DNA from: Planctomycetota bacterium
GTDB lineage: Bacteria; Planctomycetota; B15-G4; SIAN01
Direction of reading: 5' to 3'
Assembly (NCBI GenBank): GCA_028289345.1
Contig: JANQQL010000033.1
Span: forward strand, 992,001-1,056,000
DNA length: 64,000 nucleotides
Made by a program: the position numbers and the translations under genes. Each line of letters opens with the position of its first letter. Position 1 is the first letter of the stretch. The notes under the pieces are model-generated. The model saw only the letters and a list, made by a program, of their open reading frames with translations. It had not been told where the DNA came from and did no database searches. Shown one piece after another: positions 9,000-14,623 of the stretch.

Positions 9000-9063
9000 G
9001 AATCTGGAGTCGTTCCTCGACGGATGAGCGAAAGCAGCTGTCGAATCGCGGACCCGGAATCGC

Positions 9064-9098
9064 GGGACACGGGACACGGGACACGGGACACGGGACAC
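9064..9098. repeat. Five tandem copies of 7-mer GGGACAC
   Basis: gggacac x5 counted directly, just upstream of the GNAT gene. Confidence 0.95.
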
Positions 9099-9110
9099 GG
9101 GAACAACAGG

Positions 9111-10544: not shown

Positions 10545-12203
10545 TCAGCGCTCGGCGCCTTTCTGCAACTCCGCGGCTCGTTGCTTGTGTTCCCCCGCGA
10601 GCGCCTCCCAGCGCCTTCGCCCTTCGTGGTCGGCGGCCTGCCCGGCGAGCTGAGTCAGACTCTTGCACACCTGATGCATCCGGCGGTGATGCCGGACCGG
10701 GTCGACGCTGAGCCGCCCTTCCACTCCGATGTCCGCGCACACCTCCAGATACCGGGTCAGGGCTTCTCGGTACGCTTCCCCCCCGGCGGTCGCTTTCGCT
10801 CCCCGCAGAACGACCAGCGCTCCTTTCGCGTCCTCTTCTTCGATCACCCGGACTTCAAAGAACTCACTCCAGCGAGTCTCGGCTCCAGAGAACCGCTTCG
10901 AGAGGAGAAACAATCGGCCGCGTTGGTCCGGCCGTGCAGAGGTCGCGTTGGCGAAAGGAATCATGGGCGGAAGCTCGAGATCCCACTCCAGCTGATCCGG
11001 CTTCTCGATCCCGAGAACCCCGAGTACCAACACGTCCTTCTTGCTCCGCGATTTCTGCGAGACCCAGGCGAGCCCCTCTTCGAAAGGGCGGGCCATCTTC
11101 TGTTCGATTCGCGTCCAGTACGAGGGATGAGCCACAAGGAATCCCAGCAGTCCCAACGAGAGTACGACTCCGACGATCGAGCGCTGAGCCCCCCGCGCCC
11201 ATCCCGCGATTCGCCAGACTCCCAGAGCCACGAGCAGCAGTTGGGCGGGCACGGTCGCAATGACGAACCGGTCGAACGCCGACACCGCGTGAGTCGAACC
11301 CACCCCGACGAAGAACAACCACGGCAAAGTCGCCCAGAGAAGCGTCAGCTGAGCCCGCTCCCGGTGCCGCCGCCACCCTTCCCAAACGCCGAGCACCATC
11401 AGTAACCAGGCGATCGAACGCAAGCTCCGGTGGACATGACCATAGGTCGGCAACACCCAGTCAACGCGCCATCCACTTCCCGTCCATTGCTCGCGAAACA
11501 CGAGGATTTCGGGCATTGCCTGTCGATAGAAGCTCCACACCGCCAGCGCGGCGAGTCCCGCCGGCAACACGAGCATGGCGGTCCGCTGCCAGCGTCGACC
11601 TCGTTCCTCGCGCTGGAACAAGCGAAGCCCGGCATGCACCCCCAGAACACAAGCCACCGGAGCCGCACTCAAAGACGTCGCCAGGAGTCCGAACAACGCC
11701 AGCGTGAGTGAAAGCAGCCAAACCACCCCACCCCGGGACCAGGCGAGTCCTTCCACCCAGAACAGCAGACAGCTCAAGAACACCACACATTCGTAGGCGC
11801 GAGCCACCCGGGAGTACCGGATCAGCAGCGGGCTGAGAGCCACCAGAGCCGCCGCCACGAACGCGACCTCTTTCCCGAACCAGCGCCGCCCAATCTCGAA
11901 AACCAGCGGTACCAGAGCGACCCCCACCAGCGCCGAGGGCAGCTTCAATGACCAGGCACTGTCCCCAAACAACGCCGCCCACCCGCGCAGGCCCAGCAAG
12001 TACAGGTGCATGGTCAACTGCTGAGTGTAATGCGAAAGGATCTCCCCCGGCGACCGAGCAATCCACTCCAGAGTGCCGAACTCATCGCCCTTGAACGACC
12101 AATCCGCAATCGTCCAAAGCCGCAACACCGCCGCCACCGCCGTCAAAGCGGTGACGAGAATCATCTCTCGCTTGCGCAACCCCAAGTCGGAACCAGTGTC
12201 CAT
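10545..12203 (-). CDS. Glycosyltransferase family 39-like integral membrane protein
   Basis: LRLWTIADWSFKGDEFGTLEW..HLYLLGLRGWAALFG.. N-terminal GT39/ArnT-like pattern and multiple TM helices. Confidence 0.8.
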   Translation of the reverse strand: MDTGSDLGLRKREMILVTALTAVAAVLRLWTIADWSFKGDEFGTLEWIARSPGEILSHYTQQLTMHLYLLGLRGWAALFGDSAWSLKLPSALVGVALVPLVFEIGRRWFGKEVAFVAAALVALSPLLIRYSRVARAYECVVFLSCLLFWVEGLAWSRGGVVWLLSLTLALFGLLATSLSAAPVACVLGVHAGLRLFQREERGRRWQRTAMLVLPAGLAALAVWSFYRQAMPEILVFREQWTGSGWRVDWVLPTYGHVHRSLRSIAWLLMVLGVWEGWRRHRERAQLTLLWATLPWLFFVGVGSTHAVSAFDRFVIATVPAQLLLVALGVWRIAGWARGAQRSIVGVVLSLGLLGFLVAHPSYWTRIEQKMARPFEEGLAWVSQKSRSKKDVLVLGVLGIEKPDQLEWDLELPPMIPFANATSARPDQRGRLFLLSKRFSGAETRWSEFFEVRVIEEEDAKGALVVLRGAKATAGGEAYREALTRYLEVCADIGVEGRLSVDPVRHHRRMHQVCKSLTQLAGQAADHEGRRRWEALAGEHKQRAAELQKGAER

Positions 12204-12374
12204 GCACTCGATCCTACGCCGATCCCGAACCGCCGCTCAGCAGTTCGTCCCGGATTTCAGAGAAACTCCCCAAGAGCCCCTCCGAAAGCAGATCCCTCCC
12301 GCGCCATAGCGGGTGACGCCACCATCATTCCCACTCGACCCGCGAGAGCCCCGGATGTCCGGTCGCCAGCCACA

Positions 12375-12690
12375 AACTCAGTACGCAACAACAACCCAAC
12401 CCATTCAGCCACCAACCCCACCGCACGCCCCCAATACGAAGTGAGAGGGACAGGTCCCCTAACACCGCCAGCCGCAAAGTCGGTGCGAACAACACCCAGC
12501 CGAGTCAGCCGACCAACCCCGCCGCACGCCCCCCAATACGAAGTAAGGGGGACTGGTCCCCTAACACCGCCAGCCGCAAAGTCGGTGCGAACAACACCCA
12601 GCCGAGTCAGCCGACCAACCCCACCGCACGCCCCCCAATACGAAGTGAGGGGGATGGATCCCCTGACACCGCCAGCCGCAGAATCGGTGC
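12375..12690. repeat. Tandem repeat, 102-bp period, three core copies with (g)GGGAC-GTCCC hairpin plus degenerate flanks
   Basis: 'caatacgaagt..' recurs at 12432, 12534 and 12636 (exact 102-bp spacing); cores at 12447-12458, 12548-12561, 12650-12663. Confidence 0.9.
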
Positions 12691-12695
12691 GCAGA

Positions 12696-12860
12696 GCCGG
12701 AGTGGATGCCATGGGTGGAGAGGGCATGTCGGAGGGCCCAGACTCCAAACCGAACGCCCACGCCAACGCGACGTGGGCCCGGAGATTTCAGCGGAGCTCC
12801 CCCGCAATCTCACGCTCAAGAGCGGAGCGGGCCCTCGCAACCCATGGCATCCACTCCGGC
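12696..12860. repeat. Long inverted repeat with perfect 20-bp arms
   Basis: gccggagtggatgccatggg (12696-12715) and cccatggcatccactccggc (12841-12860). Confidence 0.9.
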
Positions 12861-12905
12861 GACCCCACCCATCCCTCAGCAGAAACCCCCATCCCCCGAA
12901 CGAAG

Positions 12906-14462
12906 TCACCGAGGCCCCGAATAAACCCCCGTAAACTCCAACTCCCGCAAAGGCAAACTCCCCAAATCACTCTCCACCACCACCTTCCCCCGAAGAAACC
13001 GCATCTTCGGGACCCCCACCAGCCGAAGCCGCAGCTCGTACTTCATGCCCTCTTCCAAAGGCACGATCTCCGCTTCGAACAAGTTCTCGCCTTGCTCTGA
13101 AGTCACGGAAGCGGATCGGGGAACATAGGGCACCGCGGGATTCTGATTTTCGATCGAGTAGCCGCCGACGATTTCACCGAGTGACTCGATGTTGCCCAGG
13201 TCGAGAGTCGAGGATGTCTTGCGACGACGTTCCCCCAATGGACGGAACTGCACTTCGGGAAGGATCTCGACCGCATAGGTCAATCGACACTCTCGAGCCC
13301 ATTCGTGATCGAGGAGCAGCCGTACCGTCCCCTTGTGAATTCCGGGAGGTGCATCGGGGCGCACCTTCACCTCGACCATGTGGGCGACTTCGTCTTTGAC
13401 GCGCCGCAGGCGCCGGGACTCCACGTCGACGATTGGAGGCTCGGGCATCTGGAAACCGACGATGTCGAACTCGCCGATCACTGCCGAACTGACCCGAACT
13501 TTTTCGGACGGAGTCTTCGAGCGAATCACTCCATCGAAGCGCACCGACGAAGGCAGCAACGTCATCGGATCGTCGAGCGCCATGGAGACTTTGAGGGTCA
13601 GCGGAAAGTTGTGAGGATCGTTGGTGTAGACCCAGAACTTGCGAGACATCAAACCGGCGGTCAATCCCAAGGTGTCGACCGACACTCCGAGAGTCGCCTC
13701 CTCGCCGGGCGCCAACACACCGATGACGTCCTCGCGCCAACGCTCCCGAGGAACCCGTCCTTCCGGGAAGGTAATCTCGGTGATTCCGCAAGTGCAGGAG
13801 CGCCGAATGCTCTGCAAGAGCAGGTCGCCCTGGCCCTCATTGCGGAGAATGAAATCCGTTTCGAGTTTCTTTCCCCCAAGTTCATCTCCGAAGTCGTGGA
13901 CGAATCGATCCACGACCAGCTTGGGCTGGGGGCCTTCGGAGAAGATCCTCTCGGGGACCTCCCCGACGATCCGATCCTTGTCTTCTTCCGGCTCGACCAC
14001 GTTCAAGAGGACGGACAGGACCACCGGTTCTCCGACATCGACGTCCACTTGGATGTCCAGGGGGTGCTCTCCCGGTTCCCAAGCCGACCCGTCGAGCACC
14101 AAGACCAAGCGCTGCTGACCTCCTGACTCGACGGGAATCTGCAGCTCTTCTCCGCCACGCAACTCCAAGGCTCGCTGATCGCTAGAAGATTTCAGTGCAA
14201 AGCCCGCTCCTTCGGCGCTGCTGCGCAGGCTTTGAATGACGACATCGGAGTCTCCGCCATTGGTCAGCCGCAGTCGTCGGTGCAGTTTGCCACCCGACTC
14301 GAGGGTGATCTCGGCCGGGGGACGCACAAACCGGAGCCCGGACTCCGAAGCAATCGCAGTCGCCAACGGCGCCAAGCCGGCCGCCCTCGCCACAGGAAGC
14401 CTCGTCGAGGCGGGCCCCGCACCGGCGATGATCACGCCCAGGGTCAGTGCCCCAGTCCACAT
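12906..14462 (-). CDS. DUF1573-like secreted protein
   Basis: Start [19 protein letters not shown] at 14462 (14525 also possible); two segments of DUF1573 style, e.g. [43 protein letters not shown]. Confidence 0.75.
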
Positions 14463-14623
14463 TCGAAACGTCACTCGCGTTCGACCTTTCCCGTCACCCT
14501 CTTCTTCCCTGCGCCGGTCCCGCAACGTCCGGACGACTCGCGGGTTTCGGTACGGGTTTCGAGGCAGCGCTGTTGGGGCCCTCTCATACCCCAGAGCGGC
14601 ACCCCTCGGGTAGTATCGGCGCC

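Follow-up and report, generated by a model that had tools for sequence, protein, structure and literature searches.

A dispersed structured repeat found at gene 3' ends adjoins a 102-bp tandem array in a Planctomycetota genome

The window, i.e. the whole 64,000-nucleotide stretch of DNA that was analysed, contains a 102-bp tandem array, which lies in the 702-bp gap separating a DUF1573 gene from a PMT_2 glycosyltransferase gene. A 30-nt inverted repeat (12696-12725/12831-12860), overlooked by the sequence-only reading from which this analysis started, adjoins the array and belongs to a structured element. The features of the gap and its flanks are as follows.

10545 to 12203, minus strand: PMT_2-type glycosyltransferase gene, on the far side of the array
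12364 to 12691, no strand assigned: 102-bp tandem array (TRF: period 102, 3.2 copies, 89% matches, score 505)
12447 to 12458, no strand assigned: palindromic core of array copy 1, GGGACAGGTCCC; the preceding A makes the sixth pair an A.C mismatch
12548 to 12561, no strand assigned: palindromic core of array copy 2, GGGGACTGGTCCCC
12650 to 12663, no strand assigned: palindromic core of array copy 3, GGGGATGGATCCCC, which carries the paired change
12687 to 12869, plus strand: window copy of the dispersed structured element, given as the homology span in common with its closest copy (L083, 88%)
12696 to 12716, plus strand: outer stem P1, 5' arm
12720 to 12725, plus strand: stem P2, 5' arm (GAGGGC)
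12728 to 12786, plus strand: branch P3, with a GTC..GAT base, a GGGCCCA/TGGGCCC upper part and a G-N-A/G-N-A loop between them
12791 to 12828, plus strand: branch P4, with GC/GC and GCTC/GAGC around a G-N-A/G-N-A loop
12831 to 12836, plus strand: stem P2, 3' arm (GCCCTC)
12840 to 12860, plus strand: outer stem P1, 3' arm
12906 to 14525, minus strand: DUF1573 gene, pointing at the element, with its stop 45 nt away

The TRF score of the array is far beyond chance level. Both TRF and the core positions confirmed three copies with cores spaced exactly 102 bases apart, as had been described; elsewhere copy 1 carries small indels, including one spacing of 101 bases. The open reading frames overlapping the array had been read as by-products of non-coding DNA, and this reading was upheld: none had a Pfam match and their GC3 was flat (0.60-0.61, vs 0.72-0.76 in the neighbouring genes), and on these grounds a coding reading was rejected. 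Another, short tandem repeat (CGGGACA, 5.7 perfect copies) occupies window positions 9063-9102, close to where an acetyltransferase-like gene frame begins.

A compensatory change in the palindromic core had been taken to suggest that a hairpin is selected or recognised. The paired C/T and G/A change is indeed present in copy 3. It amounts to one event only, however, and the outer pair is lost in copy 1; together, the three copies thus hold one pair change that is kept and one pair, the sixth in copy 1, that is broken. Copies 2 and 3 differ at six of 102 positions, three of them inside the 14-base core (P about 0.04). Array units did not fold better than their shuffles (copy 2, z = -0.3 and -1.2 on the two strands; copies 1 and 3, z = +1.3 and +0.8), and approximately 10% of shuffled 102-mers hold a 6-bp stem by chance. 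The lone compensatory change is weak evidence, as one isolated paired change within a short palindrome carries little weight.

The likening of the array unit to REP elements did not survive comparison with the genome. A search with the 328-bp array matched the 8.4-Mb genome only at the present locus, and the 102-bp unit is confined to it. The core motif was found at 7 sites per strand, vs 1 for the reversed control; two of the seven lie within the array, and the flanks of the four further sites that were viewed in their context are unrelated. The search for a REP-associated transposase (RAYT) returned a single Y1 transposase gene (L007, C15:229641) with no link to the array; an inverted AGTGCCGGACACTT-like palindrome borders this gene, whose flanks show no similarity to the array. 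Given one locus only and a Y1 transposase gene with another palindrome at its flanks, a REP/RAYT reading of the array was rejected. With a single locus and no unusual folding, the array is best explained by tandem duplication of an ordinary, local kind within non-coding DNA between two genes. At the Y1 transposase gene itself, an inverted GTGCCGGACACTT palindrome is found at the flanks, near L007:1058 and L007:2588. With one mismatch, the 14-base pattern occurs at 5 sites per strand, vs 2 in the control, including two inverted pairs (C3 and C41).

When the query was lengthened by 44 bases beyond the array, dispersed matches appeared in the genome. They define a family of about 17-19 copies, on many contigs, of an element approximately 170 nt long. 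Fourteen copies are full (window, L083, L084, L085, L086, L089, L091, two in L092, two in L121 and three in L122), and incomplete ones are found where contigs end (L087, L088, L090, both ends of L120, L123 and L124). An exact 24-base overlap links L088 with L090, and L084 overlaps with L087 for 259 bases at 96%; in both cases the assembly has probably split a single locus in two, and the L120, L123 and L124 contig ends may join in similar fashion. Many assembly breaks fall inside element copies (ends of contigs C6, C12, C33, C37, C39, C44 and C50), where a hairpin or repeat probably halted assembly. Similarity between copies stops near the element or near an upstream tail described below.

The element folds into a three-way-junction hairpin of approximately 165 nt consisting of a 21-bp outer stem (P1), P2, and the branches P3 and P4, and it ends in terminal inverted repeats with 30-nt arms that are 93% complementary. 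For the window copy, folding z-scores were -6.8 on one strand and -6.4 on the other. A covariance model built from seven copies recovered the other full copies and matched the window at 12696-12860 with 181.8 bits. Across the 14 full copies, 97.5% of cells were paired and 28 of 43 base pairs showed changes on both sides; the covariation score was 0.54, compared with 0.17 +/- 0.016 after shuffling and at most 0.11 with slid partners. Strong compensatory evolution in a dispersed structured element is thus present at this locus, though in the 180 bases beyond the array and not in the array itself. As this alignment was fitted to the model, a sequence-only MAFFT alignment was tested too, and gave a consensus energy of -134.5 vs -60.6 +/- 5.3 for 60 column shuffles. 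In P1, the L122 copies differ from the rest at nearly every position. The symmetric three-by-three G-N-A/G-N-A loops between the helices of P3 and P4 were kept in nearly all copies, while in the three L122 copies (contig C37) the loop between P1 and P2 is now largely paired.

Indications of the strand were mixed. Exceptions to Watson-Crick pairing on the plus strand were G.U rather than A.C by 24:4, a ratio that drops to 8:4 in a hand-picked subset without the pairs that depend on the plus-strand model. Consensus energy was lower for the plus strand (-134.5 vs -127.7), and mean energies of single sequences slightly preferred the opposite one (-99.8 vs -104.9). On the plus strand, the G-N-A loops would be compatible with sheared G.A pairs. 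On account of the non-Watson-Crick pairs and the conserved G-N-A/G-N-A loops we lean to the plus strand, which is favoured, not proven.

Element copies adjoin called genes but fall outside them, and their position and orientation just behind stop codons are fixed. At all 14 loci where a gene could be read on the 3' side (window, L083, L085, L086, L088, L089, L091, L092, L121, three in L122, L123 and L124), this gene is directed at the element, with the stop codon 13-153 nt away, while genes on the 5' side run in either direction in about equal numbers. L084 was omitted from this count, its nearest gene being uncertain, and the three L122 copies, with paralogues among their genes, are only partly independent; 13 of 13 in the same direction already corresponds to P = 0.0002 in a two-sided sign test. 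Neighbouring genes were called from open reading frame length and codon-position GC, with Pfam support for most. Among their products are GMP synthase, UvrD, a prolyl oligopeptidase, two sulfatases, a GGDEF regulator, a protein kinase and, at L092, what we take by eye to be a DNA-3-methyladenine glycosylase; they have no function in common. Dispersal of the element is independent of the neighbouring genes. An intrinsic (Rho-independent) terminator was rejected, as a T-run after the hairpin is absent on either strand in the 14 copies. On C37, L122:8755-12971 is a gene-element-gene-element array in one direction, with two paralogous genes of 73% DNA identity that belong to no Pfam family.

Outside this genome the element was not detected. 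Under strict filters, a search of 293 further genomes from the phylum gave no match; under lax filters, 13 other genomes of the order gave nothing except one chance-level match, and distant blastn found none in plasmids and phages. The window and eight other loci gave nothing above the gathering thresholds of Rfam release 15, and relaxed thresholds returned chance-level miRNA matches only. One Nitrospira site and two viral-contig sites from pattern scans of genome and viral collections were unsupported by the covariance model and were discarded. Comparison of the element accordingly rests on copies inside one genome, no close relative carrying it, and a lineage-specific, previously mobile family is the best reading; past mobility follows from its dispersal behind unrelated genes.

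In a subgroup of copies the element is preceded by a conserved tail of approximately 75 nt, which starts with TTGCGTACGCAA and contains the boxes TTGCGTACGCAA and GCGTCCTCGAA. Exact matches to TTGCGTACGCAA number four in the genome, each of them upstream of an element. Could the 102-bp array itself belong to the element, as a multiplied copy of this tail? GTACGCAA lies 315 nt upstream of the window P1, or about 111 nt after subtracting two repeat lengths, and a GTACGCAA palindrome is found 73-143 nt upstream in other copies. However, the tail profile matches 12 element copies and finds no match in the window array, so that this origin is unsupported and we consider it very improbable; L083, the closest relative of the window copy, has no tail match either.

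With its many intergenic copies and shared secondary structure, the element has the hallmarks of a stem-loop family, and the literature on gene-end repeats held nothing closer than dispersed stem-loop families. ERIC and YPAL, 100-170 bp in length, are dispersed through intergenic DNA and form a single long hairpin, and Yersinia ERIC has been reported to alter the expression of neighbouring genes as RNA hairpins (PMC2267715). Like these enterobacterial and Yersinia repeats, the element is dispersed, intergenic and hairpin-forming. It is set apart from them, by description, through its three-way junction, conserved loops, strong covariation between copies, small copy number and strict location after stop codons in one orientation. 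The bcr1 repeats of the Bacillus cereus group (about 150-170 bp, tens of copies, intergenic, with a predicted common fold; PMC2267715) are alike in size, intergenic site and common fold but belong to a different lineage, again on a comparison by description. REP sequences with RAYT are likewise palindromic, extragenic and in principle multi-copy, whereas the element is much longer, and a different palindrome flanks the one Y1 transposase gene of the genome. MITEs resemble it in their terminal inverted repeats. The element therefore looks like a new family of the ERIC/bcr1/YPAL kind, as far as a comparison with the named families by description allows.

What maintains the fold and the placement can be weighed from these data. 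We rank an RNA function at gene ends first, and cautiously favour a formerly mobile structured repeat that works as a folded RNA: the folded element would act as part of the adjacent gene's mRNA, in its 3' end, on stability or end formation, or alternatively would be a small RNA of the plus strand converging on the neighbouring gene. Against this reading weigh the lack of a shared function among the neighbouring genes, the fall of the G.U to A.C ratio to 8:4 and the slight preference of single-sequence energies for the other strand. The fixed orientation implies either that insertion was targeted to gene ends or that one orientation was selected. Ranked second, and in our view doubtful, is a selfish DNA hairpin of MITE- or REP-like type without host function, moved by an enzyme that recognises folded DNA and prefers gene 3' ends. 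The multi-copy, lineage-restricted distribution behind unrelated genes and the near-perfect inverted 30-nt arms would suit such an element, although no transposase partner was identified. Either selection on RNA or template switching (PMC8794818) could produce the covariation, and the selfish hairpin would rely on the latter, i.e. on quasipalindrome correction during replication. There is documented evidence that template switching both generates hairpins and preserves them, and it can keep long arms paired without selection (PMC8794818); the largely paired P1/P2 loop of the three C37 copies suggests that it may contribute here. Yet it should also erase unpaired loops, and the persistence of the G-N-A/G-N-A loops of P3 and P4 beside covarying pairs suggests that template switching alone would not suffice.

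A folded-DNA recombination site of the integron attC type, at which a recombinase would move genes via hairpins after stops, shares with the element the fixed orientation behind gene stops and a hairpin whose structure is kept while its letters vary, and the gene-element-gene-element array on C37 also speaks for it. On the features compared it was nevertheless rejected, and is very improbable: no consistent GTTRRRY/RYYYAAC box pair occurs at constant positions in the 14 copies, the element is longer than attC and dispersed beside core genes such as those for GMP synthase and UvrD, and the genes that recur along the C37 array are paralogous to each other rather than unrelated cassettes. Returning to the folded RNA, we regard as rather unlikely, and propose tentatively, its more far-reaching form, in which the element would represent an undescribed structured-RNA class, a G-N-A/G-N-A three-way junction that spread through its own mobility to gene 3' ends as a portable gene-end module or converging small RNA. 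With many compensatory changes among copies in one genome, the family offers a good test of RNA selection against template-switch repair of DNA hairpins, and, with copies behind unrelated genes in one orientation, of mobile repeats as gene-end modules.

One further contig deserves mention. L120 (C39, 4674 bases) has a tailed element copy at each end, the two being inverted and 96% identical, and contains a gene for a 1005-aa AAA ATPase-like protein; the contig might represent a block of genes with the element as its frame.
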